From Fulvivirga lutea (GTDB taxonomy: Bacteria > Bacteroidota > Bacteroidia > Cytophagales > Cyclobacteriaceae): a DNA stretch of 64,000 nucleotides. Positions 11,873 to 40,533 of the stretch are shown here, piece by piece. The position numbers and the translations under genes are program-made. The notes under the pieces were generated by a model. That model saw only the letters and a program-made list of their open reading frames with translations. It ran no database searches and was not told where the DNA came from. The stretch is taken from assembly GCF_017068455.1 (NCBI RefSeq), contig NZ_CP070608.1:1093488-1157487 (forward strand). The letters are read 5' to 3'. Within the stretch, counting starts at the first letter, position 1, and the number at the start of each line of letters is the position of its first letter.

Positions 11873-11877
11873 GAATC

Positions 11878-12696: not shown

Positions 12697-12714
12697 TTAG
12701 TTGCTTAAAACTAA
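12697..12714. terminator. Weak hairpin between convergent genes
   Basis: A 6-bp stem TTAGTT/AACTAA with a six-base loop sits directly after the panB stop and before the convergent stop of the next gene. The following T run is short on both strands, so terminator activity is uncertain. Confidence 0.3.
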
Positions 12715-12715
12715 T

Positions 12716-13000: not shown

Positions 13001-13114
13001 AACTGCTTAAACGGGAAATGGAAAGTGAGGTTTATTGTATGGGAGGTGTGTTCAATTAGACTCTCATCTTTGATCAAGAAAATGTACCTCTGGCTTTAAA
13101 TAGTTATTGTTGTA

Positions 13115-13546
13115 TCATAGTTCTACCCGAGGCCATTTCCATGCATAATAAATAATTAGAAAAAGCAGAATTACTTCAACAGTAGCTCCAAATACCATGT
13201 GCATCCAGGCTTCTCCGGCCAGATTAAACAACATAAAAGGGATATTCACCGCAGCTACAATGATATTTGCTGCGCGATTTGCTCTAGCCGGAAGGGCAAC
13301 AGAGAAGTAAATCATCAGTGCTGGAATAGCCACTAAGGCAAGTGCAATTGAAAGAAACATTGGCGAAATATCGAATACAAACACCCTCCCATTCAGAATA
13401 TCTTTTATCATATTCGGCATATACAGGGCAAAATAATCGATATAGATAATTAGAAACATCACACTCGCCCAAAGCGCGGCAAGTTTCAGTTTTACATTTA
13501 CTCTTAGGTCTTCCAGCTTGTTTTGTGGTGTTTTTTGTGAATTCAT
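13115..13546 (-). CDS. DUF6326 family membrane protein
   Basis: A 143-residue protein with four predicted membrane segments (LAALWASVMFLIIYIDYFAL; ISPMFLSIALALVAIPALMI; AANIIVAAVNIPFMLFNLAG; VEVILLFLIIYYAWKW). The N-terminal EDLRVNVKLKLAALWASVMF and the sequence YMPNMIKDILNGR match my recollection of the DUF6326 family. Function unknown. It starts 9 bases after the stop of the next upstream gene (13556-14179), so the pair is probably one transcript from the promoter at about 14210. Confidence 0.7.
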   Translation of the reverse strand: MNSQKTPQNKLEDLRVNVKLKLAALWASVMFLIIYIDYFALYMPNMIKDILNGRVFVFDISPMFLSIALALVAIPALMIYFSVALPARANRAANIIVAAVNIPFMLFNLAGEAWMHMVFGATVEVILLFLIIYYAWKWPRVEL

Positions 13547-13555
13547 AAGTATCTA

Positions 13556-14179
13556 TTAAAAGTTAAATCCAATATGCAGTCCTGGCTCAGGCGTCCATTT
13601 TGGCCACTTGTCATCTTTTTGTTTAAATCCATCCGGCATTTCTGTGTAATAAGGGCGACCAGCTACTCCAAATGATGGCTCAATAAAAAATTGATCTTTG
13701 AAGAGCTTTACATGATAACCAATTCGATAAGTGTTAAACAGATGAAAACCATTCTCTAGTTTGTTTCCATTTTCATCTTTGAATTTTTGCCACATAGGTA
13801 TTAAATGTACAGCAGCGTAGAGACCTTTCCAGAAATATCGCTGATAAGCTAGTCCAATTCCATACTCACGAATATATCCTGGAAATTCCTCTTCTGGCTT
13901 TCCATAGGAATTGTCATAAAACGGGTTAATTCCAAGAGGCCATGCATATTTCCAGGTTATTAATTCAACAGAGATTACATCCTTTCCTGTTATCCGATAA
14001 CCTAGATTCAGCTGAACGAATTCGGGGCTGTTGGTGGAGGCTAAATTTCCCAATAAAAACATAGTGCTGCCCACAAAATGATTTTTAAAGTCACCGTCTT
14101 GTTTAGCGTATTGAGCGTTTGTTGAAATGTTACATGCTAAGAAGCATGCTATTCCCATCCAAAGAATTTTCTTTTCCAT
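13556..14179 (-). CDS. Probable outer-membrane beta-barrel protein, unknown
   Basis: A 207-residue protein with an N-terminal signal peptide (MEKKILWMGIACFLACNIST). It then has alternating hydrophobic/polar aromatic-rich strands such as VQLNLGYRITGKDVISVELI and YRIGYHVKLFKDQFFIEPSF, ending in GLHIGFNF, a barrel-like C-terminal Phe. This suggests a small outer-membrane barrel. No family could be named. A full promoter (TTG and TACTTTTG) lies just upstream. It is co-directional with a Crp-like regulator 81 bases upstream, which may control it (inference). Confidence 0.62.
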   Translation of the reverse strand: MEKKILWMGIACFLACNISTNAQYAKQDGDFKNHFVGSTMFLLGNLASTNSPEFVQLNLGYRITGKDVISVELITWKYAWPLGINPFYDNSYGKPEEEFPGYIREYGIGLAYQRYFWKGLYAAVHLIPMWQKFKDENGNKLENGFHLFNTYRIGYHVKLFKDQFFIEPSFGVAGRPYYTEMPDGFKQKDDKWPKWTPEPGLHIGFNF

Positions 14180-14205
14180 ATCTTATATAATGTGATTAGA
14201 TGCTG

Positions 14206-14213
14206 CAAAAGTA
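14206..14213 (-). promoter_or_regulatory. Promoter -7 box TACTTTTG with TTG at -33
   Basis: On the minus strand TACTTTTG matches TAnnTTTG exactly, and a TTG triplet (complement of 14230-14232) lies 16 bases upstream, close to the Bacteroidota -33/-7 spacing. The ATG at 14179 follows about 26 bases downstream. This is the most complete promoter I saw in the window. Confidence 0.6.
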
Positions 14214-14260
14214 GATGGGTGAATTACTACAAAACGTTCACTTAAGTGAAGAAATAGGGC

Positions 14261-14839
14261 TTAGCTCCCTTTTTCCATGATTCTTGCTCTTAGCCTACTT
14301 AATGATTGAGGTTTGATGCCGAGGTAGCTGGCTAGTTGGTGCTGTGGCACACGCTGAATCAGATCAGGTCTTTTTTGTAGAAGGTTGAGGTATCGCTGCT
14401 CGGGCGATGAAGTCTTAAACTCATCAAAATCTATTTGTTTTTTCACTAACAATTCTTCCGATAACATTCTGCACATGATATCAAACTTTGGAAATTTAGT
14501 GTTTATGGCTACTTCCACATCAGAATTTGAAATAGCAAGAATGCTGTCTTCAACGCAACTAATAAAATATTCAGAAGGAGTTTTGTTTACCGCACAATGA
14601 GGGGTTAATGCATCTAGTTCTGTGTAGAAGGCAGTTGTTTTTTCTTCCCCATCGATAATATAATAAACCCTAATACAGCCTTTTAAAACAAAATAACTCT
14701 CGTGTGACTTCTGTCCTTCTTTAAGTAAAACCGTACCTTTCTTTACTGGATGAAACAGATCTAGTGAAAGTAATGCACTTTTTTCTTCTTCCGTTAAAGA
14801 GATGTATTTTGATATAAAATCAAATAGTATGTCTTGCAT
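14261..14839 (-). CDS. Crp/Fnr family transcriptional regulator
   Basis: A 192-residue protein with an N-terminal cyclic-nucleotide-binding-type beta roll (KKGTVLLKEGQKSHESYFVL, residues 34-53, then GCIRVYYI). A C-terminal HTH follows (VPQHQLASYLGIKPQSLSRL, about 165-184). The phosphate-binding cassette residues of true CAP proteins (RxGE...R..S) are not evident, so it may sense something other than cAMP, as many Bacteroidota members do. It lies immediately upstream of, and co-directional with, an outer-membrane-like gene and DUF6326. Confidence 0.88.
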   Translation of the reverse strand: MQDILFDFISKYISLTEEEKSALLSLDLFHPVKKGTVLLKEGQKSHESYFVLKGCIRVYYIIDGEEKTTAFYTELDALTPHCAVNKTPSEYFISCVEDSILAISNSDVEVAINTKFPKFDIMCRMLSEELLVKKQIDFDEFKTSSPEQRYLNLLQKRPDLIQRVPQHQLASYLGIKPQSLSRLRARIMEKGS

Positions 14840-14971
14840 TGGATTCTCAATTGAAGTGGTTATGATAAAACTAGTATGATTTGGGTTTAGAACCTAGTTT
14901 GCTGATTGATGGTAGGAGCCACAACGACTAGGTCTTCGCATGGTGAAGTCCAAATGCGCTATTACATAATG

Positions 14972-15391
14972 TTACAAGCCTATATTTTTTATTATTGTAT
15001 CAAATATAATTGGCCAACTTAGCAACAAGAGAATGAGTATTATTGAGAAAAATTTGTCTGTCCAATTGAACGTCTTTCGTTTCTTCATATGTCCTGTATA
15101 ATCAACTGAGTACCTGCTGTATAAATGAAAATCACGATTGTATAGTTTATTAGAAATTTGATTGAACAACTCTATCGAGCACCCAATAATTATTGGTCCA
15201 GTAAAAAACCCATAGAGAAAAGAATTATTAAATGGAGTCTTGCCTAAATACAAAGCATAAATAATAATCAATATTGGTAGAGAAGTCAGGATTAACCTAA
15301 TGAGTCTATTAATTCCGTAATTTTTAGAAAGTATAATTGTAACCGAAAGTATATAGCTTAATATGAAAGTTATAGTTTGCTCAGTTGACAT
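14972..15391 (-). CDS. Hypothetical four-helix membrane protein
   Basis: A 139-residue protein with about four hydrophobic stretches: ITFILSYILSVTIILS, LIRLILTSLPILIIIYALYL, FLYGFFTGPIIIGCSIELF and FFSIILILLLLSWPIIFDTI. A basic soluble loop between the third and fourth includes MKKRKTFNW. No family recognised. The local DNA is more AT-rich than its neighbours, and there is no obvious operon partner (73 bases to the CAP gene, 132 to the Crp gene). Confidence 0.55.
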   Translation of the reverse strand: MSTEQTITFILSYILSVTIILSKNYGINRLIRLILTSLPILIIIYALYLGKTPFNNSFLYGFFTGPIIIGCSIELFNQISNKLYNRDFHLYSRYSVDYTGHMKKRKTFNWTDKFFSIILILLLLSWPIIFDTIIKNIGL

Positions 15392-15464
15392 TTAATGGCT
15401 TTTAACACATCGATAACAACCACCGAGTGTTTTTTATATTTTATTACCAGGCAAATCTACCAAT

Positions 15465-27649: not shown

Positions 27650-28282
27650 TCACATAATGTGTCTGAGTTGAGTTGCACCTCTCAATTGTTGAATCTTCAC
27701 TAATTTTAAAAATAATAAGGCCGTTGAGTAGGCGTCACCTAAGGCAGTATGTCTTTCCAGGGGTTGGATATCATATTTTGTCAATAAAGTATCCAGGAAA
27801 TAGTCTTTCTTTTCATAATTATGGCGGTCCATCGGAGATGTGTTGAGTCTTATTGCCAAGCGTGCAGTATCCACTAACCGATGACTCTTCGTCATTTTAG
27901 GATTGAATCGATTGAGCATGGCCAGATCAAAAGCGCCATTATGAGCCACCAATACAGATTTTTCAATGTACTTTTCAGTTTTAGACAATGCCTCATTCAA
28001 GCTGATGCCATTTTTGCATTTCTCTAATGTAATCCCGTGTACTTCGATGGATTCCGAAAGTTGAATGTCTTGGTGTTTTATAAAAAGCTCTTTACCGGAT
28101 TCGACTTTAATTTCCAGATTTTGAATAGTTACCAACCCTATTGAAAGTAACTCTGCCTGGGTATGATCGAGTGAAGAGGTTTCTGTGTCTAGACATACAA
28201 ATTTAATATTCTCCAATGGCGTATCATGGGAGATAAGGTTTGGGTTATGATCCTTTCCGAAAAGCTTCTTCCAAAACTCCAT
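27650..28282 (-). CDS. DEDDh 3'-5' exonuclease (DNA pol III epsilon-like)
   Basis: A 210-residue protein with the three exonuclease motifs: ExoI KFVCLDTETSSLDHTQAELL (Asp and Glu metal ligands), ExoII VAHNGAFDLAMLNRF, and ExoIII HTALGDAYSTALLFLKL with the His and Asp of the DEDDh class. Its start overlaps the stop of the cNMP/CBS/DUF294 gene by one base (TAATG), so they are translationally coupled. This same pairing accompanies acetate symporter operons in many Proteobacteria (family knowledge). The link to acetate is unexplained; a nucleotide-processing rather than DNA-repair role is possible. Confidence 0.88.
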   Translation of the reverse strand: MEFWKKLFGKDHNPNLISHDTPLENIKFVCLDTETSSLDHTQAELLSIGLVTIQNLEIKVESGKELFIKHQDIQLSESIEVHGITLEKCKNGISLNEALSKTEKYIEKSVLVAHNGAFDLAMLNRFNPKMTKSHRLVDTARLAIRLNTSPMDRHNYEKKDYFLDTLLTKYDIQPLERHTALGDAYSTALLFLKLVKIQQLRGATQLRHIM

Positions 28283-30174
28283 TAATTAAAATAGCTTAAC
28301 TGAAACCTTACTTCCAGCATTTTTTGTAGCCTGTTTATCGGTTCAAAGGTATTGCGCAAAATTTGCCGCTCTATTTTAGATAATGATTCTATAGAGATAT
28401 ACCGCCCTGAGTTCTTGTTTTGAAAGCCGTTCAACGCCCGAAACCGCATTAGATATTCATAGCTCTCAGCGGCCAATTTATATAGTTCGGCATTATTCTT
28501 ATCGTTTTTCTCGAGCCATTTGTAGCGAACTAAAGTATTACTGCTAATGGATTCACCCGAGTTTAAAGCCAGCACCCTGGCGATATCAACCAAGGGCATC
28601 ATAGCTCTTGCTTTAATGTCGAATCGATCCACATGCTCTCCAGACCTCTCCACAACAAAATTCTTGAAAAAGCTAAGTGGTGGAGGATTTTGCAAACTAT
28701 TTTTCGCCAAGAAATGGATGAAGATATTGCCGCTTTTAATTTCATTTTTCAGATGCTTTCCCAATTCATCTGCCAATTCTTTTGCACCGTACACGTGTCG
28801 GTAATCAAAGAAGATGGTTGAGAGCATCAGGGATTTTTCCTGAGGCTGATGAATCCAGCCTGAAAAGTATTTCTTCCATTGATTGAGGGGCTGACACCAT
28901 TTTTCGTTTCCGCCCATCATTTCGGCAGGGCACATCTCAAAACCGCAAGCTTCTAAGTTGGAATTTATTTTTTGAGCCAACTTTATAAAATAGAGCCGGG
29001 TGGATTCATCCTGATTATCTTCATAAATGAGTGCATTATCCTGGTCAGTTCGGATGAGTTGCTCTTGTCGTCCTTCGCTACCCAAACTTATCCAGGCAAA
29101 TTTTGCCGTTGGCTCCCCAACTTCCTGTAGAGCGCACTCAATGCATTTACTGATGGTGATGTCGTTTATATGGGAGGCTAATGAACTGACCAATTGGATG
29201 GATACATGCTGCTCAAGATAAAAGTTGATTAAAGCATCTGCCTGATTGCGTAATTCAACTAGTTCAGAAAGTTCTGCTGCCTGCTCCATCGTATAGCCCA
29301 ATGTTATGGGGTGATTCTGGCTGGCACCTGTCAAATCGTGATGGCTAAGTATACCAACAGGCAACCCTTTTTTTACCAGACACAAATGATTGATTTTGTG
29401 CTGCAGCATTTTGAGGAGATAGGAGGAGAGCGGTTTGCCTAAGTTCATGGTAATAACATCAGGGGTCATGATCTCCGAAATGGGTTGTGTGACAGCGACT
29501 TTGCCTGTTGCTACCTTCGTTTTAAAGTCTGTTTCAGTAGCAATACCTATGGCTTTTTGTTCGTCATTACAGATAATGATTGAGCCAATTTGCTCCATGG
29601 TCATTAGACCAGCAACATCCTTTATTAAATCGGTTGATTTGCAAGTAATGAGCGCTCTTTTGGGTTCAGCTAGCGGCTTATTCCAATTGAGTAATGATCC
29701 TGATTCTTGAACGGGCACCATTTTTTGAGTGGGCCCCTGTTGAACATCTGATTGCCCTCCTGCCAAGCCTGAAGCAAAGAAAAGAGCAATTTTACTATTA
29801 CTTTCAAGATGCTTTTTAAATTCCTCAATTGGTATTCCATATACCAAAGCCTCTTCCTCACATCGGGCATCAAAAACATAAGGCTTTCCTGATAGCATCG
29901 AGCGCACTCCAAACAAATCACCTTCATCACAGATATCGACAAGTTCTTTAGCACCCGTAGAAGTTTGACGCTCAAGATGCACCAGACCTTCTTTGACTAC
30001 ATAAAGATAGGGAGAGCTTGACTCTCCCTGCTTAAATAAATACTCCCCTTTATTGGCGTATTTTACAATTGCTTTTTCGCATAACATCAACAATTCGGTA
30101 TCTGAAATTTCCTCAAAGGGTGGAAATTTCTTTAGAAAATCCGCAATTCGCGATGCTATGACATTCGCAGCCAT
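28282..30174 (-). CDS. cNMP-binding/CBS/DUF294 nucleotidyltransferase-like protein
   Basis: A 630-residue cytosolic protein. A cyclic-nucleotide-binding domain spans residues about 10-140 (KYANKGEYLFKQGESSSPYL). Two CBS motifs span about 170-290 (ALITCKSTDLIKDVAGLMTM; ISEIMTPDVITMNLGKPLSS). A DUF294 nucleotidyltransferase-like domain has SLGSEGRQEQLIRTDQDNAL near 355-375, with the GS..GR.E and DQD residues. A C-terminal DUF294_C helical domain follows. GlnD-like chemistry is suggested by the fold but unproven. It lies 3 bases after acs and overlaps the exonuclease gene, so it belongs to the acetate operon and may adjust enzyme or transporter activity to nucleotide level (inference). Confidence 0.9.
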   Translation of the reverse strand: MAANVIASRIADFLKKFPPFEEISDTELLMLCEKAIVKYANKGEYLFKQGESSSPYLYVVKEGLVHLERQTSTGAKELVDICDEGDLFGVRSMLSGKPYVFDARCEEEALVYGIPIEEFKKHLESNSKIALFFASGLAGGQSDVQQGPTQKMVPVQESGSLLNWNKPLAEPKRALITCKSTDLIKDVAGLMTMEQIGSIIICNDEQKAIGIATETDFKTKVATGKVAVTQPISEIMTPDVITMNLGKPLSSYLLKMLQHKINHLCLVKKGLPVGILSHHDLTGASQNHPITLGYTMEQAAELSELVELRNQADALINFYLEQHVSIQLVSSLASHINDITISKCIECALQEVGEPTAKFAWISLGSEGRQEQLIRTDQDNALIYEDNQDESTRLYFIKLAQKINSNLEACGFEMCPAEMMGGNEKWCQPLNQWKKYFSGWIHQPQEKSLMLSTIFFDYRHVYGAKELADELGKHLKNEIKSGNIFIHFLAKNSLQNPPPLSFFKNFVVERSGEHVDRFDIKARAMMPLVDIARVLALNSGESISSNTLVRYKWLEKNDKNNAELYKLAAESYEYLMRFRALNGFQNKNSGRYISIESLSKIERQILRNTFEPINRLQKMLEVRFQLSYFN

Positions 30175-30177
30175 GAC

Positions 30178-32073
30178 CTACTTTGCACCATCCTTAATAG
30201 CTTCCACCACTTCCGGATTCAATAGCGTTGATGTGTCACCCAAATTAGCAGTATCCTTAGAGGCTATTTTTCTCAGAATTCTACGCATGATTTTACCAGA
30301 CCTTGTCTTAGGCAATCCGGGTACGATCTGAACTTTATCAGGCTTGGCAATTGGACCGATAATTTTAGTAACCGTATCTCTAATCTCGTTTATCAGGTTG
30401 TCTTCAGTTCTGCCTTCCATATCACAGATCACATACGCATAAATGCCTTGCCCTTTAATATCGTGCGGATAGCCTACAACAGCTGATTCAATTACTTTAG
30501 GATGTTCGTTAATAGCATTTTCTACTTCTGCCGTGCCCATTCTATGGCCCGAGACATTAATCACATCATCTACTCTGCCTAAAATTCTGTAGTAGCCATC
30601 TTCATCACGTTTCACACCGTCACCAGTGAAATACATACCGGGGTAGGTAGAGAAGTAGGTTTGTTTACATCGCTCATGGTCGCCATAAGTGGTTCGCAGC
30701 ATACTCGGCCATGGAAACTTAATACACAGATTTCCTTCCACACTATTGCCTTTCAATTCTTTGCCATCCGCGTCAACAATGATCGGCTGAATGCCGGGTA
30801 ATGGAAGTGTGGCATACGAAGGTTTAGTGGGCGTAATACCTGCAATTGGCGAAACCATAATTCCTCCTGTTTCCGTTTGCCACCAGGTATCTACGATAGG
30901 GCATTTTCCTTTACCAACATGGGCATGATACCAATGCCATGCTTCTTCATTTATTGGTTCACCAACAGAGCCGATAACTTTAAGAGATTTCAATGAATAA
31001 GGTTCAATCGGTTCGGTGCCATAAGCTTGCAAGGCACGAATAGCTGTTGGAGCAGTGTAGAATTGATTGACTTTGTATTTATCTACGATTTGCCAGAAAC
31101 GACCTGCATCTGGGAACGTAGGTACACCTTCAAACATTACTGTGGTCGCACCTGATAGCAATGGTCCGTAAACGATGTATGAGTGACCGGTAATCCAACC
31201 CACATCGGCTGTGCACCAGTAAACATCACCTTTATTATATTGAAATACATTTTCGAATGAATAACTGGTATAAACCATATAACCTGCTGTGGTATGCACC
31301 ACACCCTTAGGTTTTCCGGTTGATCCTGAGGTGTAGAGAATGAACAGCATATCCTCTGCGTCCATTTCTTCTGCTTTGTTCTCTATCGATTGGCCTTCTA
31401 TCGCATCGTGCCACCAGATGTCTCGGCCTTCTTTCATGGTCACGTCTTCACCTGTTCTTTTGAAGACGATTACCTTTTCGATGCTCGAGGACTTTTCAAG
31501 GGCTTCATCCACCACTTCTTTAACAGGAATAGATTTGGCACCTCTAAAATTACCATCTGATGTAAGCACCATTTTCGCAGAACAGTCTTCAATTCTATCG
31601 GCCAATGCACTCGATGAAAAACCTGCAAACACCACTGAATGAATGGCTCCAATTCTAGCGCAAGCTAACATAGCCACAGCGGCTTCAGGAACCATAGGCA
31701 TATAAATAATTACTCTATCACCTTTACCCACGCCCTGCGCTTTCATGGCATTGGCAAATTGATTGGTTTTCTCAAAAAGTTGTCGATAGGTAATTTCCTG
31801 ATTGGGCTCATTTGGGTCGTTAGGTTCCCAAATTATGGCGGTTTTATCTCCCAACGTAAATAAATTTCTTTCGAAGATATTTTCGGTAATATTCAACTTG
31901 GCATTGGTAAACCATTTCACATCAGGACCGTCAAAGTTCCATTCTACCACCTTATCCCATCTTTTTTGCCAATGAAAGGAGTCGGCAATTCTTGACCAGA
32001 ACTCTTCGGGATTGGTTACACTCTTTGCATATTCATGGAAGTACCCGGTAAGGGTTTGTATTTTATTACTCAT
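30178..32073 (-). CDS. acs: Acetyl-CoA synthetase
   Basis: A 631-residue AMP-forming acetate-CoA ligase. Visible motifs are NAKLNITENIFERNL, the A3 loop FILYTSGSTGKPKGVVHTTA, WCTADVGWITGHSYIVYGPL, DTWWQTETGGIM, the hinge RVDDVINVSGHRMGTAEVEN and the C-terminal PKTRSGKIMRRILRKIA, whose Lys is the usual acetylation site. It converts acetate, ATP and CoA to acetyl-CoA, feeding aceBA. It follows the response regulator by 25 bases and is followed by the CBS/DUF294 gene after 3 bases. Enzyme, regulator and sensor thus appear co-transcribed. Confidence 0.97.
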   Translation of the reverse strand: MSNKIQTLTGYFHEYAKSVTNPEEFWSRIADSFHWQKRWDKVVEWNFDGPDVKWFTNAKLNITENIFERNLFTLGDKTAIIWEPNDPNEPNQEITYRQLFEKTNQFANAMKAQGVGKGDRVIIYMPMVPEAAVAMLACARIGAIHSVVFAGFSSSALADRIEDCSAKMVLTSDGNFRGAKSIPVKEVVDEALEKSSSIEKVIVFKRTGEDVTMKEGRDIWWHDAIEGQSIENKAEEMDAEDMLFILYTSGSTGKPKGVVHTTAGYMVYTSYSFENVFQYNKGDVYWCTADVGWITGHSYIVYGPLLSGATTVMFEGVPTFPDAGRFWQIVDKYKVNQFYTAPTAIRALQAYGTEPIEPYSLKSLKVIGSVGEPINEEAWHWYHAHVGKGKCPIVDTWWQTETGGIMVSPIAGITPTKPSYATLPLPGIQPIIVDADGKELKGNSVEGNLCIKFPWPSMLRTTYGDHERCKQTYFSTYPGMYFTGDGVKRDEDGYYRILGRVDDVINVSGHRMGTAEVENAINEHPKVIESAVVGYPHDIKGQGIYAYVICDMEGRTEDNLINEIRDTVTKIIGPIAKPDKVQIVPGLPKTRSGKIMRRILRKIASKDTANLGDTSTLLNPEVVEAIKDGAK

Positions 32074-32098
32074 AATTCATGTGTGTTTTATGGTTATG

Positions 32099-32467
32099 TT
32101 ATTCGATTAATTCTATGGCTAATTCTTTTACTTTATTTACTAAATGTTTAGTGCTAAAGGGCTTGGTAATGTACAGGTCTGCGCCAGCATCATACCCTTT
32201 TTGTATGTCTGCTTCTTTGTCCTTGGCAGATAGAAATATGACCTTCGTACGCCTATTCTTTCGTTTGATGTATTCACATACTTCGTAACCATCAACAAAA
32301 GGCATCATGATATCCAAAATAACAATCTCGGGTTTTTCAGATTCCACTATTGTCATGGCTTCGGATCCATCGCGCGCGATATAAACTTCGTACCCAATTT
32401 TCTTAATTAAGAATTCGAGTGACATTATAATATTCGGTTCATCATCAACAATTAGCACCTTTATCAT
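32099..32467 (-). CDS. Receiver-only response regulator
   Basis: A 122-residue CheY-like receiver with nothing after it. It has the acidic pair in LIVDDEPN (residues 8-9), phospho-acceptor Asp52 in IVILDIMMPFVDGYEV, the switch Ser in VIFLSAKDKE and Lys in LYITKPFSTKHL. Six bases separate it from the transporter-kinase stop, so it is very probably that kinase's partner. The analogous Proteobacterial CrbR and CbrB carry DNA-binding output domains; this one has none, so output must go through protein contacts or another regulator. Confidence 0.93.
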   Translation of the reverse strand: MIKVLIVDDEPNIIMSLEFLIKKIGYEVYIARDGSEAMTIVESEKPEIVILDIMMPFVDGYEVCEYIKRKNRRTKVIFLSAKDKEADIQKGYDAGADLYITKPFSTKHLVNKVKELAIELIE

Positions 32468-32473
32468 ATCCGC

Positions 32474-35182
32474 TTAATTTAATGGTATCAAACATTGAAA
32501 GCGAGCCCCACCGGTTGCGCTATTCTCAACCCAAATTTTACCTCTGTGCAACTCAATTATTTTTTTACTGATCGTTAATCCAAGACCACTACCTTCAGGC
32601 TTTTTGAGTGTCTGATTTTTAGCCTGATAGAAAGCTTCAAAGATTAACTCTCGGCTTTCGGGCGAAACTCCCGGGCCGTTGTCTTCTACTATAAAACTAA
32701 GATTACCATCGCCATTTTGGGCATTGATGATAATTTTTCCATTGATTTCGGGGCAATGCTTGGTGGCATTACTAATTAAATTGATCACCACTTGCATTAA
32801 TCGGTCTTTATTCCCTTTTATCATAGGAAGCTGTTCCTGTATTTGAACGTCCAGATCAATACTCTTTTCTTTAATTACTTGTCTCAATCGGTTTAATGAG
32901 TCGGAAATGATGTCTTCAAATTGGATATCCGACAGTTCAAGATTTAGCTTTCCTGATTCCATTTTTTCCAAATCCAATACCTGAGAAATGAGTCTATCCA
33001 TGCGTTTGGTCTCACTGATAACAGTATCCAGAAATTTGGATCGCTCCTCATCTTCCAAATCCGGGTTGTCATGTATGATTTCTGACATGGCTCGTATAGA
33101 AGTTAATGGTGTGCGCATCTCATGTGTTACTGTAGAGATAAATTCATCTTTTAGCTGGTCCAATTTTTTTAATTCTTCGTTGGCTATTTGTAGTTGCTGA
33201 GTGGCAATTTCTAATTCGTCTGACTTTTCTTTTAATGCCTTATTATCAGATATAAACCTTCTCGATTCCTGAAGAATATCGAAAACTTCATTCATAGAAA
33301 TATTATCTTCTTTAACAACATTGGATATTAGCACTCTGGAAGAAGCAGAGCCCACAACACCGGCAAGTAATTTCTCGGCATAGTTTACCAATCGAAAGTC
33401 TGCACGTAGACTTTCGCTATTGATCTTGTTGTTGATCATGAAATTGCGAAATGCCCTGTTGGTTCGCTCTTCCCCAATGAATTTATTGAGTAAAGATTTT
33501 ATATCCTGTACATAGGCTGTTCCTTTCCAAACAATGGAGCTTTCATAAACTGTTGAGTATTGGAAAATATCTACAAATACTTCGGCCTGATTAATCTCTT
33601 TGCTCGATTGTTTTGATAGTAGGGATACCGCCACATAAGTGAGGAGGTTAATGAAAATGCTCCAGAAAAAACCGTTGGTTATGGGGCTCAGGTTATCTAC
33701 ACCCAAAAAGTTATTAGGACTTAAATAACCAACTCCAAATGGGCCATCAATAATAAACTGCTCAGGAAGAAGTCCCGTACTGACGATTGTTGGCAATACC
33801 AATGTGTAAAACCAAATGGCGAAGCCTGACAAAATTCCTGCAATGGCACCTGTGCGCGTTCCGTTTTTCCAGTACATTCCTAGTAAAACAGCAGGAGCAA
33901 ATTGTGCAACGGCCACAAAGGAAATAAGCCCAATTGAAACAATGGAGAAGCGATCGGAAACGTACTTGAAATAGATATAAGCTAAGAGCAATATGGCAGC
34001 TATCAGGAATTGTCGGCCTCTTAAGAGCACTTGACTTACGTTGTTGTTTTCAGGAGCTGAAAGTTCTGTGTTTTTTACAATGAGTGGTGTTAATATGCTG
34101 TTGCTAAGCATTACACCCAGCGCAGTTGTTGAGACAATAATCATACTGGTTGCTGCTGACAAGCCTCCCAGATAGGTAAGCAAAGCCAAAGGAGTATTGC
34201 TCATTTGAAGCGGTATGGCCAACATATAGGTATCCGCATCTACAGGATTATTTTGAAAAATTAATTTACCTCCAAGCGCTATGGGAATAACAAAAATGTT
34301 AATGAGCAACAAGTAAAGTGGAAAAAGCCACATGGCTTTTTTTAGGTGATTTTCATTCCTGTTTTCTTTTACGGTTACATGAAACTGCCGCGGCAAAAGC
34401 ACAATGGCCAACATGGAAAGAATGTTGAGCCACATCCAGTTGGAATAGCCACTGTCCGAAGGAATGGTTAGCAGCTTCTCGATATCAGGTAGCACTGATG
34501 ACTGCTGAAAAATATCTCCAAAGCCATTAAACAGACCGAAGGTCACATACAAACCAATAAATATAAATGCAGCCAGTTTGAATATCGATTCAAAAGCAAT
34601 GGCAGCAATCAGGCCGTTATTTTTAAGGTTACTATCAACACGATTCGCTCCAAATAAAATGGTGAATATTGCCAATAGAATGGTGATGTAAAAGGCTGTA
34701 TCATTAAAAAAGGCTACTGATGCAGAAGTGTATCCCGGGCTATCTCCGGTTAAAATAAGGAAGCTGTTGGAGATGGCTTTGATCTGTATAGAAATGTATG
34801 GTAATACGCCTACAGCACACACAAAAGCAACCAGCCCGCCAATGAAAATATTTTTTCCATAGCGCGAAGACACAAAATCAGCAATAGTAGTGATGCGCTG
34901 TACTTTACATATTCGAATAATTTTGCGAATGACTATCCACATAAGAGGTGCCATGAGTAGCGGCCCGATGTAGGTGGTCAGAAAATCCAGCCCTTGGTTG
35001 GCCGCTCTACCAACACTGCCATAATAGGTCCAAGCCGTGCAATAAACCGCCATGGACAAAGCATAAATGTAAGGGTTATTCACCCAGCGACTTTCACTGT
35101 TGCGTTCAGCCCAATAGGCGATACCAAAGAGCAAGCCCAAATAAAGAAATGATAGCAATATAACCAGCCACTTAATTTCCAT
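32474..35182 (-). CDS. SLC5/SSS transporter-fused sensor histidine kinase (CbrA/CrbS-like)
   Basis: A 902-residue protein. Residues 1 to about 535 are a sodium:solute symporter-type domain of about 13 helices, beginning IKWLVILLSFLYLGLLFGIA with core VYCTAWTYYGSVGRAANQGL. Residues about 550-640 form a soluble helical region resembling the STAC linker (FIGEERTNRAFRNFM). A coiled coil (SDELEIATQQLQIANEELKK) leads to HisKA with His687 in TVTHEMRTPLTSI. HATPase_c has the N box (about 801-805), EDNGPG (about 833) and GSGLGLTISKK (about 865). The family (CbrA, CrbS) senses carbon source or acetate. It overlaps the upstream 70-residue gene by 11 bases and precedes the receiver gene. Confidence 0.93.
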   Translation of the reverse strand: MEIKWLVILLSFLYLGLLFGIAYWAERNSESRWVNNPYIYALSMAVYCTAWTYYGSVGRAANQGLDFLTTYIGPLLMAPLMWIVIRKIIRICKVQRITTIADFVSSRYGKNIFIGGLVAFVCAVGVLPYISIQIKAISNSFLILTGDSPGYTSASVAFFNDTAFYITILLAIFTILFGANRVDSNLKNNGLIAAIAFESIFKLAAFIFIGLYVTFGLFNGFGDIFQQSSVLPDIEKLLTIPSDSGYSNWMWLNILSMLAIVLLPRQFHVTVKENRNENHLKKAMWLFPLYLLLINIFVIPIALGGKLIFQNNPVDADTYMLAIPLQMSNTPLALLTYLGGLSAATSMIIVSTTALGVMLSNSILTPLIVKNTELSAPENNNVSQVLLRGRQFLIAAILLLAYIYFKYVSDRFSIVSIGLISFVAVAQFAPAVLLGMYWKNGTRTGAIAGILSGFAIWFYTLVLPTIVSTGLLPEQFIIDGPFGVGYLSPNNFLGVDNLSPITNGFFWSIFINLLTYVAVSLLSKQSSKEINQAEVFVDIFQYSTVYESSIVWKGTAYVQDIKSLLNKFIGEERTNRAFRNFMINNKINSESLRADFRLVNYAEKLLAGVVGSASSRVLISNVVKEDNISMNEVFDILQESRRFISDNKALKEKSDELEIATQQLQIANEELKKLDQLKDEFISTVTHEMRTPLTSIRAMSEIIHDNPDLEDEERSKFLDTVISETKRMDRLISQVLDLEKMESGKLNLELSDIQFEDIISDSLNRLRQVIKEKSIDLDVQIQEQLPMIKGNKDRLMQVVINLISNATKHCPEINGKIIINAQNGDGNLSFIVEDNGPGVSPESRELIFEAFYQAKNQTLKKPEGSGLGLTISKKIIELHRGKIWVENSATGGARFQCLIPLN

Positions 35183-35384
35183 GATCTTTATCTTTTAAAA
35201 ACCTGGTGGCGATATACCATAAGATGACAATAACCAGAATCCAGAAAGCTGATAGAAATAAGGTAAGTGGTGGAATAGTCCACGAAAAATTAAGGCGGTT
35301 GAAAATGTGAAGAATAGGAGAGTGAATCACTACAAAAAGTGTGATGAATGTTATGATTAACACCTGATTCACTTTTTTATCCAT
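35172..35384 (-). CDS. CbrX-like tiny membrane protein coupled to the transporter-kinase
   Basis: A 70-residue protein with two hydrophobic helices (QVLIITFITLFVVIHSPIL and LFLSAFWILVIVILWYIATR) joined by an NRLNFSWTIPP turn. Its start shares one base with the previous stop (TAATG) and its end overlaps the kinase by 11 bases, so all three are translationally coupled. Size and position match CbrX, the small membrane protein overlapping cbrA in Pseudomonas, and the small subunits (DUF4212/DUF3311 type) that accompany SSS transporters. Identity to those families is inference from layout and topology. Confidence 0.72.
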   Translation of the reverse strand: MDKKVNQVLIITFITLFVVIHSPILHIFNRLNFSWTIPPLTLFLSAFWILVIVILWYIATRFLKDKDHGN

Positions 35385-35578
35385 TATTCTGAATCGTTAA
35401 AATTTAAGAATTTCAGTTTAACTAAAATTAATAAAACTGACAGTGCAATAACACCAATAAGGATAGAAAAAAGATATGAAACCTGATGAGTGGATTCGTA
35501 ATAGAACCGGAGTAATAATGTTATTGTGCCATAGGCTCCGATAAAATAAATGGAAGCTTTACGTCCTAGTCTGTTCAT
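35384..35578 (-). CDS. Small two-helix membrane protein
   Basis: A 64-residue protein from the ATG at 35578; longer in-frame starts would run into the terminator of the symporter operon. It has two helices (ASIYFIGAYGTITLLLRFYY and YLFSILIGVIALSVLLILVK) and a short basic N-terminus (MNRLGRK). No family recognised. It is the first gene of the sensor-regulator-acs operon and is coupled to the CbrX-like gene by TAATG. A role as an accessory of the sensor is inferred only from position. Confidence 0.6.
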   Translation of the reverse strand: MNRLGRKASIYFIGAYGTITLLLRFYYESTHQVSYLFSILIGVIALSVLLILVKLKFLNFNDSE

Positions 35579-35589
35579 AATAAATAGTT

Positions 35590-35622
35590 TAAAAAGAAAG
35601 GCTAAGAGTATTCTTCTTAGCC
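35590..35622 (-). terminator. Rho-independent terminator after the symporter gene
   Basis: An 8-bp perfect stem GGCTAAGA/TCTTAGCC (35600-35607 with 35615-35622) has a 7-base loop. On the minus strand it is followed by TTTCTTTTT. It lies 21 bases downstream of the SSS symporter stop, so uptake genes and sensor/acs genes are at least partly separate transcripts. Confidence 0.8.
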
Positions 35623-35643
35623 CTTCCATAAGAATTTTGAAAA

Positions 35644-37338
35644 TTAGTGATCCGAAGCGGCTCCTGCTCCTTTAGGGAATCGGATATCTTCTACGATTGC
35701 CTGTACATCAGCAGGTGGTTCAGCAGTTGCTCTTGACACTGCAAAAGAAACTACCAAATTTACAACCATGGCTACTGTGCCGAAACCTTCAGGTGATATT
35801 CCGAACCACCAGTCTTCAGCAGTTCCGCCACCAAAGCCTCCGAGTTTATACTTAATCATGTAGAAAAGCATTAAAAGAATTCCTACAACCATTCCGCTAA
35901 TGGCTCCTTCTTTGTTCATTCGCTTGTCGAAAATACCCAGAATAATGGCTGGGAAGAAAGAAGCAGCGGCCAAACCAAAGGCAAGTGCAACTACGGCAGC
36001 CACAAATCCCGGAGGGTTGATGCCAAAGTAACCGGCAACACACACCGCAACTGCAGCTCCTATACGTGCCCATATCAGTTCCTCTTTTTCAGAGATATTC
36101 GGTTTGATTTGCTTTTTGATCAAATCGTGTGACAAACTGGTAGATATTACAAGTAACAAACCTGCTGCTGTAGAAAGCGCTGCTGCAAGACCACCCGCTG
36201 CTACCAATGCAATTACCCAGTTGGGAAGATTGGCAATTTCAGGGTTGGCAAGCACCATAATATCACGGTCGATAGTAAGTTCATTCTTTTCTGCATCAGC
36301 TACATATTGGATTTTACCATCAGCATTTTTATCGTCAAAGGCAATCAACCCTGTTTTTTCCCAGTTCGAAAACCACTGAGGTACAGAAGCATATTCTTTA
36401 TCTGACACAGTATTGATCAGGTTTGTTCTTGCGAAAGCACCAATAGCAGGTGCTGTTGTATAAAGAATAGCTATGAATACAAGTGCATAACCGGCAGACA
36501 TACGTGCATCACGAACTTTCGGCACAGTGAAGAATCTTACGATTACGTGTGGCAATCCAGCCGTACCCACCATCAAGGCAAAAGTGATAGCAAATACATC
36601 AATCATAGATTTAGAGCCCGAAGTATATTCGGCAAAACCAAGTTCAGTATGTAACTGGTCCAATTTATCTAAAAGATAAACTCCAGAACCATCAGCCATG
36701 GTGCTTCCAAACCCCAATTGAGGAATTACGTTTCCTGTTAATTGTATCGAAATAAAAAAGGCAGGAACCATGTACGCGAATATTAACACGCAATACTGAG
36801 CTACCTGAGTGTAAGTGATACCCTTCATGCCACCCAATACGGCATAGAAGAATACGATAGCCATACCAATGTAAACTCCTGTGTTAACAGGTACTTCAAG
36901 GAATCTGGCGAATACAACACCCACGCCCCGCATTTGGCCGGCCACATAAGTGAACGAGACAATGATGGCACAAACAACGGCCACCGTACGAGCAACATTG
37001 GAGTAGTATCGATCTCCGATAAAATCAGGAACGGTAAACTTTCCAAATTTCCTTAAATACGGAGCAAGCAGTAAAGCCAGAAGTACGTAGCCACCTGTCC
37101 AACCCATGAGGTAAACCGTACCGTCATAGCCCATAAATGAGATCAATCCTGCCATGGAAATGAATGAGGCTGCCGACATCCAGTCTGCGGCTGTAGCCAT
37201 ACCGTTAGCAAGGGGTGAAACACCACCACCTGCCACATAAAAATCTTTCGTTGAACCGGCTCTTGACCATATCGCTATACCGATGTAAAGAGCGAATGTG
37301 ATGCCGACAATTATATAGGTCCAAATTTGAATATCCAT
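35644..37338 (-). CDS. actP: Cation:acetate-type SSS symporter
   Basis: A 564-residue sodium:solute symporter of about 13-14 helices. Visible blocks are FYVAGGGVSPLANGMATAAD with WMSAASFISMAGLISFMGYD, YVAGQMRGVGVVFARFLEVP, VGTAGLPHVIVRFFTVPKVR and AGLLLVISTSLSHDLIKKQI. This pattern matches the ActP/VC_2705 subfamily. A larger insertion (about 330-360, DDKNADGKIQYVADAEKNEL) is typical of the DUF4212-associated type. It follows the DUF4212 gene by 24 bases. The likely substrate is acetate or another short carboxylate, supported by acs, the glyoxylate genes and the sensor nearby. Confidence 0.9.
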   Translation of the reverse strand: MDIQIWTYIIVGITFALYIGIAIWSRAGSTKDFYVAGGGVSPLANGMATAADWMSAASFISMAGLISFMGYDGTVYLMGWTGGYVLLALLLAPYLRKFGKFTVPDFIGDRYYSNVARTVAVVCAIIVSFTYVAGQMRGVGVVFARFLEVPVNTGVYIGMAIVFFYAVLGGMKGITYTQVAQYCVLIFAYMVPAFFISIQLTGNVIPQLGFGSTMADGSGVYLLDKLDQLHTELGFAEYTSGSKSMIDVFAITFALMVGTAGLPHVIVRFFTVPKVRDARMSAGYALVFIAILYTTAPAIGAFARTNLINTVSDKEYASVPQWFSNWEKTGLIAFDDKNADGKIQYVADAEKNELTIDRDIMVLANPEIANLPNWVIALVAAGGLAAALSTAAGLLLVISTSLSHDLIKKQIKPNISEKEELIWARIGAAVAVCVAGYFGINPPGFVAAVVALAFGLAAASFFPAIILGIFDKRMNKEGAISGMVVGILLMLFYMIKYKLGGFGGGTAEDWWFGISPEGFGTVAMVVNLVVSFAVSRATAEPPADVQAIVEDIRFPKGAGAASDH

Positions 37339-37362
37339 TGTTAAATATTTTTAGGTTGATTA

Positions 37363-37623
37363 TTAATCTTCGTGAACATCATACTCCTTATCGAGTTTGT
37401 TCATCCAGTTTACATAAACGAAGATGAGCGCCACGAAAACATAGATTGATCCTTGTTGAGCGAACCAAAACCCAAGTTTAAATCCGCCAATTTTTATAGT
37501 ATTCAGAGCGTCTACAAATAGAATTCCGAATCCATAACTCACTAAAAACCAGATGGAGAGCAGTATTGCCAGAAAGCGCAAATTCTTCTTCCAGTATTCC
37601 GTCATTTTTTCTTGATTGTTCAT
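37363..37623 (-). CDS. DUF4212 symporter small subunit
   Basis: An 86-residue protein with two helices (LRFLAILLSIWFLVSYGFGI and GSIYVFVALIFVYVNWMNKL) and the family signature YWKKNLRFL, GFKLGFWFAQQGSIYVF and KLDKEYDV. DUF4212 proteins are found with SSS-type carboxylate symporters and are regarded as their small subunit. Here it is immediately upstream of that symporter (24 bases) and 17 bases downstream of the porin gene, giving an outer- plus inner-membrane uptake operon. Confidence 0.93.
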   Translation of the reverse strand: MNNQEKMTEYWKKNLRFLAILLSIWFLVSYGFGILFVDALNTIKIGGFKLGFWFAQQGSIYVFVALIFVYVNWMNKLDKEYDVHED

Positions 37624-37640: not shown

Positions 37641-38951
37641 TTATAAGAATATATGTGTTTGAAGTCTCCATTGAGTGACATCACCGTCAGTACCAGGACT
37701 GTCTCTAAAGTCACCTCTGATGGTGTGGTACTCCAAAGTAATTTTGGCATTATGACCGCTTACATAGTAGTTTACACCGATATCCATAGAGCTAATATTG
37801 TCTTCTAATGCATCATAACTACCAGATTGGTAGGCGAAATAAGGCATAATGTTCAGGCTAGGTATGTAATATCCACCCTGTACATATATGTTTGTACCAG
37901 TACCTGCCCATCGGGAAACATAGTTATCTCCGTAATCAAAACTTTGAAAAGCGGCATAGGCATTAATTCCACCGTCACCTAATGGTGCGTCATAAAATAC
38001 ATCTGCTGCGAAGTGTTGAACATTTTCGTGCTCACCTGTAGCAGTATCAAAAGCTCCGTTAGCATGTCTGAAAAACCCTGCTCCAAATCCCAAGATTTTC
38101 TTTTTACCGAAATAGGTACCTACCTGATACGGCAGTTTTGTAGACTCTGTATCGAATAAATTATATCTGAAATAACCTTCAACAATAGTATTTCCTGTAG
38201 GATCACCATCTAAATCTATCTGAGCTGCACCATCGTAAGTAATGGTTGATGCCTCAGAATTAGGGAAGGCTGCTCCATAATTTGCTCCTGCACCTAATGC
38301 ATTTGCTGGGTTTAGTGGATTGTTAATCGCAAATCTATAATCAAATTGTCCAATTTGTCCTTTGGCATATACACCAAAATGGCGTGCAAACTGATCGGTT
38401 ACTCCTAAAGAATGCCAATGGGTAAAAGGCCTTGCCTGATCCATGGTCATAAAGTTTAGTGTTGATGCATTGGCCAGTCGAGTTAAACCCTTCCAATAAT
38501 GTAGGCCTGTACCTATGTGTAATGCATCGTTATTTGATACTTTAAACTCTGTCCAGGCATCATGTAAAAAAAGTTGCGGACCATCACCATTGTTACCTAA
38601 TGAGGTTTGATTGTTGGGGCCGAAGTTGTTAAGCCCAAAGTGCGTTAAGATTAGAAAACGAGGTGAAATTTGAGCAAAAGCGAGCATTCTGCTTCTTCTT
38701 GTAAAGGAAGTGAGTTGCATTTTTAAATCATCAACCTCGCGATTATTAGTCTGCAACCATTGCTGGTGCCAAATAATAAATCGTACATACTTCGATCCTG
38801 AATCATCTAGCTTAAGCGTTAAAGGCTTATAAGAGTGGTCAGGCTTGGCAACAAGATTGTCTGCATCTTTGCCGTTTTCTTCTTGCGCATTGGCCGGAAT
38901 ACACCAGCATACGCTCAATGCCATAAAGACACTTAGTAGTTGTTTTTTCAT
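37641..38951 (-). CDS. Outer-membrane porin
   Basis: A 436-residue protein with a signal peptide (MKKQLLSVFMALSVCWCIPA ... NAQ) and beta-barrel-type sequence throughout: repeated aromatic/Gly strands (AWTEFKVSNNDALHIGTGLH, FGVYAKGQIGQFDYRFAINN, NIMPYFAYQSGSYDALEDN) and a C-terminal strand WRLQTHIFL ending near an aromatic. It resembles the Bacteroidota porin family seen next to carboxylate symporters. It is probably the entry route for acetate or related anions, with DUF4212 and ActP-like genes directly downstream. The promoter region holds several palindromes (38986-39039), indicating tight regulation. Confidence 0.83.
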   Translation of the reverse strand: MKKQLLSVFMALSVCWCIPANAQEENGKDADNLVAKPDHSYKPLTLKLDDSGSKYVRFIIWHQQWLQTNNREVDDLKMQLTSFTRRSRMLAFAQISPRFLILTHFGLNNFGPNNQTSLGNNGDGPQLFLHDAWTEFKVSNNDALHIGTGLHYWKGLTRLANASTLNFMTMDQARPFTHWHSLGVTDQFARHFGVYAKGQIGQFDYRFAINNPLNPANALGAGANYGAAFPNSEASTITYDGAAQIDLDGDPTGNTIVEGYFRYNLFDTESTKLPYQVGTYFGKKKILGFGAGFFRHANGAFDTATGEHENVQHFAADVFYDAPLGDGGINAYAAFQSFDYGDNYVSRWAGTGTNIYVQGGYYIPSLNIMPYFAYQSGSYDALEDNISSMDIGVNYYVSGHNAKITLEYHTIRGDFRDSPGTDGDVTQWRLQTHIFL

Positions 38952-38985
38952 TGTATTGAAACTTTAGTTGTCTGATATTTTGAAA

Positions 38986-38997
38986 AGACGGCCGTCT
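38986..38997. promoter_or_regulatory. 12-bp perfect palindrome upstream of porin
   Basis: AGACGGCCGTCT is perfectly palindromic and strikingly GC-rich for this region. It lies 35 bases upstream of the porin ATG, where a repressor could block transcription. Confidence 0.5.
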
Positions 38998-39015
38998 AAA
39001 ACTTCAACACTTCGA

Positions 39016-39039: not shown

Positions 39040-39075
39040 GAAAAAGTGATGTATATTTTTGGTAATTATATAGGT

Positions 39076-39495
39076 TTAGTCTTTAAAGCGATCCCATTTA
39101 ATCACCATGAATTTATCGCCTAATTCTGTAATAAGCATTCCTGAACCCTTTAAATAGCCTGGGGAAGCCATGAGTTCACTCAGTTCAGCATGACTTAATA
39201 TTTTGTATGTGGGGTGATAATCATAGCGTTCGGGAGGTTTAATTTTATATTTTTTTACCCAATTCATAACAGATACATGACTCACTCCCAGTATCCTTTC
39301 AATCTCTCGGTAGCTTATTCCTTCCAGGTATAATTGTAAGGCCTTAATAACAAAATAGGGGTCAATTTCTTTACCTAACTTACTGACAGTGAAATTATAA
39401 GCGCATTTTTTACATTTAAAACGCTGTCGATCGTTGACAATTCCGCTCTTGATAATACTAGTCGATTCACATTTCGGGCAGGTCGGATTACGCAT
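39076..39495 (-). CDS. IS1 InsA-like zinc-ribbon/HTH protein, no transposase domain
   Basis: A 139-residue protein. A zinc ribbon with four Cys (CPKCESTSIIKSG and FKCKKCAYNF) is followed by an HTH (LEGISYREIERILGVSHVSV and MNWVKKYKI), matching the N-terminal half of IS1/IS1595-type transposases (InsA). There is no DDE catalytic domain. A distinct C-terminal segment (SHAELSELMASPGYLKGSGM, LGDKFMVIKW) ends the protein. No flanking inverted repeats or partner ORF were found, so it looks like a domesticated DNA-binding protein. It lies co-directionally 124 bases upstream of the porin and may regulate it (inference). Confidence 0.78.
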   Translation of the reverse strand: MRNPTCPKCESTSIIKSGIVNDRQRFKCKKCAYNFTVSKLGKEIDPYFVIKALQLYLEGISYREIERILGVSHVSVMNWVKKYKIKPPERYDYHPTYKILSHAELSELMASPGYLKGSGMLITELGDKFMVIKWDRFKD

Positions 39496-39709
39496 AACTA
39501 TAGTAAGTTAGCATATATATATTATTTTAGCAATGATTTTTGAGAGGTTTCATTCCACCAAAGATTGATACTCTTTCGCAATTTGATTGGAAAATATGCG
39601 TAATTCAGTTCTAATTGCAACAAATGGAAGATTTTAACTAAAAATTTAATAGGATATCTATCCAAGAAACCTCATCTATCAAAAAAGCTGTTTCGTAATG
39701 CTGTGTGGA

Positions 39710-40453
39710 CTAAAACCAATACTCAGCGCCAACAGCAATTAGGGCTCCGATAACAGCCACCGCTAATTTTCTAGCGTTAAAATGATGGTCGGAGCTTGTT
39801 TCAAAAACAATTGTTGTTGAAATGTGCAGGAAATTACCACTAACAATGGCAAATAGAATAGTGAATGTTTCATCTGCCAGAGCATTATTTTCCACATAAT
39901 AATCACCTACAACCATGCCGATAGGAGAAGCTAGTGCAAAAAGCACTAAGAATATGATCGCGAGTTTATTTCTCTTTAGCTGACAAACGATTATAGACAT
40001 CAACGCAAAAGAAGCAGGAGCTTTATGTAATACAATACCAAACAAAATACTATTGGCATCGTGGTGGGCATGAATTACACTGGGGTGTGCCAATAGGCTA
40101 CCTTCTAAAAGACCATGAACAATCATGGCGCCCAGAACCATTATGGAAGATGCTACACCTCTCTGATGATCATGCTCGTGCTTATGGATATGACCATGTT
40201 CTGCACCTGCCGTGAAATACTCCAATATTTGCTGCAAAAAGAAACCCAGCAACACATATATACCAATGGAGGTTGGGTTTTCTGCCTGAGAAAATAACTC
40301 TGGCATTATATGGATGATCGTAATCGAGAATAAATACGATCCTGCAAACACCAATGCTAACTTATAATTCTTTTGATCAAGGTTGGGGATTGCGAAAACC
40401 AATAACCCACTTAAAAGGGCACTAAAAAAAAGAATGGCGAGACTTATGAGCAT
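39710..40453 (-). CDS. ZIP family metal transporter
   Basis: A 247-residue protein from the ATG at 40453; an upstream ATG at 40495 lies before the -7 box, so it is unlikely. About eight helices are visible, with a His-rich cytoplasmic loop EHGHIHKHEHDHQRG between helices 3 and 4. Helix 4 (IMVLGAMIVHGLLEGSLLAH) carries the H-x3-E metal site, and helix 5 has GIVLHKAPASFALMSIIV. The family imports Zn2+ or Fe2+ into the cytosol. Divergently placed from a small membrane protein; no zinc-uptake operator is recognised. Confidence 0.9.
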   Translation of the reverse strand: MLISLAILFFSALLSGLLVFAIPNLDQKNYKLALVFAGSYLFSITIIHIMPELFSQAENPTSIGIYVLLGFFLQQILEYFTAGAEHGHIHKHEHDHQRGVASSIMVLGAMIVHGLLEGSLLAHPSVIHAHHDANSILFGIVLHKAPASFALMSIIVCQLKRNKLAIIFLVLFALASPIGMVVGDYYVENNALADETFTILFAIVSGNFLHISTTIVFETSSDHHFNARKLAVAVIGALIAVGAEYWF

Positions 40454-40473
40454 GATTGGGTTTGAATGAGTGG

Positions 40474-40481
40474 CAAATATA
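40474..40481 (-). promoter_or_regulatory. -7 box TATATTTG for the ZIP gene
   Basis: TATATTTG on the minus strand matches TAnnTTTG, 20 bases upstream of the ATG at 40453 and downstream of the alternative ATG at 40495. It therefore decides the start. Confidence 0.5.
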
Positions 40482-40533
40482 CAACAGTGTTGCATTTAGA
40501 AAAGAGAGCCAGGCTCTTTCTAATAGATAATTT

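Follow-up and report, generated by a model that had tools for sequence, protein, structure and literature searches.

Within a stretch of 64,000 nucleotides of Fulvivirga lutea (the window), whose genome is a single contig of 4.14 Mb, the minus strand holds between 39532 and 27650 what may well be an acetate-use operon, in which an SLC5-fused histidine kinase would signal through INSA, a small protein resembling the repressor InsA of the insertion sequence IS1, at a repeated DNA element. The unit starts with a pair of 15-base units followed by INSA, a degenerate element, a porin-like gene, the genes of a DUF4212 protein and an SSS symporter, two genes for small membrane proteins (S81 and S70), the kinase, a single-domain receiver, acs, and the genes of a DUF294 protein and an exonuclease, all on the same strand. 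From the porin-like gene to the exonuclease, the gaps between successive genes are 17, 24, 14, −1, −11, 6, 25, 3, and −1 bases, and 127 bases separate INSA from the porin-like gene. A first-pass annotation of this DNA had proposed a locus for acetate that includes a transporter-kinase sensor of its own, made of genes that are mostly coupled or at most 25 bases apart. Gene content and conservation in Bacteroidia support this proposal, and every gene it named is present on the minus strand, as judged from open reading frames (ORFs) and domain and family matches, with spacings of −11 to +25 bases. Its list lacked the two genes that open the unit (the porin-like gene at 37641 to 38951 and INSA at 39079 to 39495), and the interval it gave, 30178 to 37623 (about 7.5 kb), leaves out the DUF294 and exonuclease genes; the genes that it named span 27650 to 37623, about 10 kb.

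Neither of the two signaling proteins of the locus carries a recognized DNA-binding part. The kinase (32474 to 35182; 902 amino acids [aa]) has an SLC5 part homologous to CbrA (PDB 10ED, E = 1.8e−68, with an alignment that stops at query residue 467), followed by HisKA (residues 678 to 744, with H687 in an HEMRTP motif) and HATPase (790 to 901) domains. It ends with the latter at residue 902 and has no terminal receiver domain; the domain search of the whole protein found no PAS domain, and no STAC model was among its Pfam matches. The receiver (32099 to 32467; 122 aa) consists of a receiver domain (residues 4 to 114); in an alignment of 107 receivers, the window copy included, D8, D9, D52, and K102 are kept in at least 95% of the sequences. 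It has no output domain and so cannot set acs by itself. Domain searches revealed no other DNA-binding protein among the operon genes of the window and recognized no phosphotransfer protein in the locus. The first-pass annotation was thus right to see an acetate sensor locus, but its model, in which the sensor sets acs and uptake, skipped the DNA-binding step, since this receiver is output-less, unlike CrbR, RpuR, and CbrB of comparable systems. INSA is the best candidate for the missing DNA-binding output.

INSA (139 aa) comprises, according to family searches, a zinc ribbon of the IS1/IS1595 type and a helix-turn-helix (HTH), followed by a small C-terminal part. In its AlphaFold2 model (mean predicted local distance difference test score [pLDDT], 82.7; predicted template modeling score [pTM], 0.56), two strands belong to the ribbon and three helices to the HTH, and the chain closes with a small beta-alpha-beta-beta part. 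The family profile matches InsA of the Escherichia coli K-12 element IS1A over positions 5 to 82 and does not match InsB, in a comparison with only these two targets, so that its E-value is nominal. In the part of PMC12428005 that deals with it, InsA is a zinc-finger/HTH protein that binds both ends of IS1 and acts as a repressor at its own promoter, with which one of the ends overlaps. INSA differs from InsA by its extra C-terminal part, its single copy per genome, and its fixed place at acetate genes; there is no insB/DDE partner, the ORF after INSA being the porin-like gene. It is conserved (mean column identity of 70% over 60 copies) and under purifying selection, with a median ratio of nonsynonymous to synonymous substitution rates (dN/dS) of 0.033 and a maximum of 0.056 among 52 close pairs. 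Although a relative of IS1 InsA, INSA cannot, judged by copy number, partner gene, and selection, be classed as an insertion sequence; apparently, it is a domesticated form of that repressor. The family is large (2,550 protein clusters of INSA-like proteins at E = 1e−5), and several of the source-named entries among the 120 clusters listed are called “IS1 family transposase” or “transposase-like protein.” INSA is single copy in F. lutea, and the closest other homologue among the matches listed, 96% identical, is in a Fulvivirga metagenome-assembled genome (MAG). One locus (L045, on contig C90 of genome G003) carries an INSA with an in-frame stop beside an otherwise similar operon.

The presence of INSA follows that of the kinase within the class. 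We compared 94 distinct same-class kinase loci, a count that leaves out L058 and L059 (duplicates of L038 and L039), five Colwellia/Shewanella loci, L125 (from a MAG labeled Chloroflexi), and nine out-of-class loci. INSA lies upstream on the same strand in 82 of the 83 loci with 6 kb of upstream flank, and in the sole exception (L051, genome G049) it is found on another contig. The receiver is downstream of the kinase in 90 of 91 loci and acs (>55% identity) in 75 of 80. A recognizable porin is upstream in 66 of 83 loci, and the SSS symporter and DUF4212 are each present in 55 of 83, making INSA more constant than porin or symporter. The gene order is kept in relatives, less so for SSS and DUF4212, and the loss of order that the first-pass annotation had named as a refutation did not occur. 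Further downstream, DUF294 is found on the same strand in 12 of 75 loci and on the opposite strand in 14. At the genome level, 20 of the other genomes in a set of 58 relatives (F. lutea included) encode a full-length kinase, and 19 of these have INSA (E < 1e−50), counting G003 with its in-frame stop; the remaining one, G001, has a contig that breaks off at the porin, short of the place of INSA. None of the 37 relatives without kinase has INSA at this threshold. Among the relatives used for the counts in this study, those found via short peptide patterns were cut to the best 80 of 87, and close relatives dominate. A sample of the phylum (345 genomes, F. lutea included), which overlaps with the first (e.g., G045 and G047), contained 37 genomes with the kinase, and the 25 of the same class, 24 besides F. 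lutea, all have INSA. The Fisher test of this co-occurrence ignores relatedness and counts as INSA-negative a weak match in G246 (41%, with an in-frame stop).

Rearranged loci are informative about the company that INSA keeps. Kinase and receiver of G049 are on one contig, which lacks the paired element, while INSA, porin, DUF4212, SSS, and acs are on another. In G221, INSA is close to acs, and this genome has no detected kinase. L152 and L057 have acs and INSA in divergent orientation. INSA thus keeps to the acetate genes.

The DNA upstream of INSA contains a paired element. In the window, unit 1 (39518 to 39532) is an exact match to TGCTAA-N5-TATA, and unit 2 (39499 to 39513) is 19 bp from it and ends 3 bases 5′ of the INSA start codon; the pair occurs once in the genome. 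We searched 92 regions (the window and 91 loci, including the duplicate L059 and the weak L140) for TGCWAA-N5-TATA units before INSA: 77 have two, 9 have one, 1 has three, and 5 have none. The spacing is 19 in all 79 neighboring pairs. With the start of INSA set at the last methionine that precedes the first cysteine motif, the last unit ends 1 base before it in 36 and 3 bases before it in 30 of the 87 loci with a unit. A matrix made from these units recovers 90 of the 92 regions, which are its own training regions. The strict pair, a pattern derived from loci that are partly within the searched genomes, occurs once each in 20 of the 345 genomes and nowhere else, and the reversed-pattern control gave zero matches. 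All 20 genomes have INSA and the kinase, and the pair is 3 to 37 bases before the INSA match in 19 of them and between INSA and the porin in G045; five genomes with INSA and kinase lack the strict form. The pair was absent from the 16 scanned loci without INSA. In L138, with a GC content of 63%, two looser units 20 bp apart are kept before INSA, which argues that the element is not an artifact of AT richness.

Similar units occur elsewhere in the locus. A reverse-oriented pattern, TATA-N3-5-TT(A/T)nCA-N2-6-TATA, is present in 64 of 90 INSA-porin gaps (0.34 expected; 1 on the other strand), at 39052 to 39072 in the window. In 20 of these 64 gaps, exactly 72 bases separate its end from the porin ORF, and it is 1 to 188 bases from the INSA stop. 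In the SSS-acs interval of L141, an exact unit lies 184 bases upstream of acs, and units are found between the divergent INSA and acs genes of L057 and L152. Compared with the ends of IS1A, one of the window units agrees with the left end in 11 of 12 bases, which 6 of 2,000 shuffles equaled; the right end matched no better than chance (358 of 2,000). Looked at as possible terminal inverted repeats of an insertion sequence, related units flank INSA in opposite orientation, and likeness to the IS1 left end is seen in one unit only; it is a lead on the origin of the element, not proof of it.

We propose that the SLC5 domain reads acetate and that the kinase would then phosphorylate the receiver. 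Having no output of its own, the receiver would relay the signal through contact with INSA and alter the seating of INSA on the element. By analogy with InsA of IS1, INSA would bind the paired units and may repress its own gene (in 66 of the 87 loci with a unit, 1 or 3 bases separate the last one from the assumed start); from the degenerate site it would control the genes from porin to acs. We consider it likely that INSA regulates the operon through the element. The signal is probably acetate or a close monocarboxylate, acetate being suggested by the neighboring genes. For the step from receiver to INSA, which we consider about evenly balanced, the argument is co-occurrence, and that the operon genes offer no DNA-binding protein besides INSA. 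More tentatively, and with somewhat less confidence, we suggest that Bacteroidia recruited an IS1-type transposon repressor together with its own sites as the output of an acetate two-component system, in which the phosphorylated receiver switches a domesticated InsA on paired sites.

Several observations weigh against this proposal, some of them concerning the DNA sites. The reverse-oriented pattern was composed after inspecting the gaps. Scored with the matrix built from the upstream units, just 11 of the 90 INSA-porin gaps give a match (1.75 expected), so the porin-side element is a degenerate relative at best. Even a loose unit is present in only 5 of the 27 acs places that are more than 60 bases from the upstream neighbor (L141, L057, L152, L098, and L116), and acs of L138 (G221) has no unit upstream. 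Single units are not enriched in the F. lutea genome (22 matches versus 31 in the control), which implies that the regulon is probably narrow. The element might also serve another factor or be part of the promoter. Others concern the partners: the fusion search gave no fusion of receiver and INSA, G221 and G344 have INSA with no kinase detected (as does G246, with the weak match), suggesting that INSA may act alone, and INSA is absent from all 12 kinase genomes outside the class in the 345-genome sample, so that the kinase/receiver pair does not need INSA everywhere. These same facts, with the Colwellia loci that have kinase and receiver without INSA, would fit a stand-alone INSA that senses by itself and regulates itself, porin, symporter, and acs, while kinase and receiver have their target elsewhere, e.g., in Acs, the DUF294 protein, or the symporter. 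We give this a minor but real chance, given that INSA accompanies the kinase in each of the 24 other genomes of the class that have it and in 82 of 83 loci, and that the operon genes of the window offer no other DNA-binding protein.

The receiver might instead hand its phosphate, or another signal, to a DNA-binding regulator whose gene is outside the locus; INSA and its element would then form a layer of their own. Single-domain receivers serve phosphorelays in other bacteria, and the F. lutea genome gave 57 histidine kinase matches, one of them a symporter. The locus has no recognized phosphotransfer protein, though, and kinase, receiver, and INSA travel together within the class, which makes this scheme improbable. 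A sensor that reads another substrate, such as pyruvate, propionate, or an amino acid, with acs as just one target, is fairly unlikely: acs is downstream in 75 of 80 loci. In its favor are the variable symporter slot (55 of 83 loci have SSS there, and L152 has an MFS transporter) and, from the portions of PMC13022988 and PMC9100948 that cover them, the response of CbrA to histidine and the control of a pyruvate symporter by RpuS/R. Lastly, the similarity of INSA to IS1 transposase models and the 11 of 12 bases shared with the IS1A left end might mean that INSA is an inactive hitchhiking remnant of IS1 and the element a leftover of its ends. To this we give hardly any credence: the median dN/dS is 0.033, F. 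lutea has one copy, the position is unchanged in 82 of 83 loci, the family profile does not match InsB, and the 3 fusion-search matches include no similar transposase-length protein. INSA as insertion sequence debris was accordingly rejected on selection, copy number, fixed place, and the lack of an insB partner.

Signaling through INSA would set the locus apart from the known systems with related kinases. As described in passages of PMC5715377 and PMC9100948, CrbS/CrbR (MxtR/ErdR) of Vibrio and Pseudomonas ties an SLC5-fused histidine kinase to acs and acetate uptake; of its acetate-dependent acs control, what is seen here is the linkage to acs, downstream in 75 of 80 loci. CrbS has a terminal receiver domain, whereas the window kinase ends with its ATPase domain, and CrbR is, like RpuR, a LuxR-type regulator according to the relevant part of PMC9100948, whereas the window receiver has no output domain. 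Membership in CrbS/CrbR was rejected, as both the kinase-terminal receiver and the LuxR-type regulator are lacking; the locus would function like CrbS/CrbR without being a member as defined and is an SLC5-histidine-kinase variant. With CbrX-CbrA/CbrB of Pseudomonas it shares a homologous SLC5 domain. The text of PMC13022988 on this system presents CbrB as a sigma-54 activator with its own promoter and CbrX, which overlaps the kinase start, as bound to CbrA in cryo-electron microscopy and dispensable for growth on histidine. The window locus differs in having a receiver only and no PAS domain found in the kinase. S70 (35172 to 35384), the end of which overlaps the kinase start by 11 bases, is like CbrX in place, size, and overlap but has no sequence match to the solved chains. 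S70-type ORFs ending at the kinase start were found in 92 distinct forms from 107 kinase loci, and 7 of 26 homologues gave weak DUF3311 matches, with none for the window copy. S70 may be the Bacteroidota counterpart of CbrX. One passage of the review PMC7918813 notes SSS kinases in Bacteroidetes, and the arrangement reported here was not described in the titles or abstract starts of the open-license PMC papers searched.

The remaining genes of the unit, with some variants in relatives, are as follows. The porin-like outer-membrane protein (37641 to 38951; 436 aa) has no Pfam family and a weak match to NCBIfam NF040900 (60.2 bits, E = 1.5e−16; cutoff, 150). Its leader (38953 to 39010, minus strand) could form a long hairpin (−12.9 kcal/mol over the 75 bases folded), and a stem of differing sequence was seen in many of the 11 relatives folded, so that structure may persist where sequence does not. 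The DUF4212 small symporter subunit (37363 to 37623; PF13937, 122.2 bits; TIGR03647, 118.3 bits) and the SSS symporter (35644 to 37338; 564 aa; TIGR03648, 872 bits; cutoff, 320.75) form a transporter of the VC_2705 family with its small subunit, both TIGR matches being above their cutoffs. L152, L098, L101, L104, L109, and L113 lack SSS and DUF4212 and have in their place an ORF of about 510 to 560 aa, which is an MFS transporter in L152, the one tested. S81 (35384 to 35629) is a small membrane protein for which no family was found; its homologues are sited between receiver and acs in many Flavobacteriaceae loci. The acetate-CoA ligase encoded by acs (30178 to 32073; 631 aa) matches TIGR02188 with 957.6 bits (cutoff, 724.95), and L153 has a double-length acs (11581 to 15441) with two AMP-binding and two ACAS_N regions, ORFs of 1,231 to 1,290 aa being found in Lutibacter-type loci. 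Next come a protein with cyclic nucleotide monophosphate-binding, CBS, and DUF294 domains (28282 to 30174; 630 aa) and a DEDDh 3′-5′ exonuclease (27650 to 28282; 210 aa; PF00929, 70.5 bits), whose gene is 3′ of the DUF294 gene in many Cytophagales loci; its count in the locus comparison (0 of 52 on the same strand) reflects the flank cutoff and was not used. Just 5′ of INSA, at 39710 to 40495, the window encodes a ZIP-family metal transporter, a homologue of which recurs upstream of INSA in several relatives; INSA itself has a zinc ribbon. In Colwellia and in loci outside the class, other proteins may follow the receiver. Four Colwellia loci (L060, L061, L064, and L117) and L147, L148, and L155 have kinase and single-domain receiver followed by a protein of 717 to 723 aa with an exonuclease domain near its end and, in the two tested, no Pfam match over the first ~500 residues; this protein could be the receiver target there. 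In L144, a PAS-like protein follows the receiver.

Regulators derived from relatives of transposon proteins have a precedent in TldR, a group of RNA-guided transcription factors according to PMC13418256. INSA would resemble them in this derivation but looks like an ordinary protein-DNA binder rather than an RNA-guided one. TldR proteins derive from TnpB. In part of the source annotations, a probable acetate-use regulator has been masked by a transposase label. If the proposal is true, INSA would be a bacterial case of a transposon repressor turned into the output of a signaling system. Because its predicted binding site is sharply defined and its strict form occurs once per genome, the standing question of the targets of single-domain receivers could then be put to a direct test with two proteins and one short piece of DNA.

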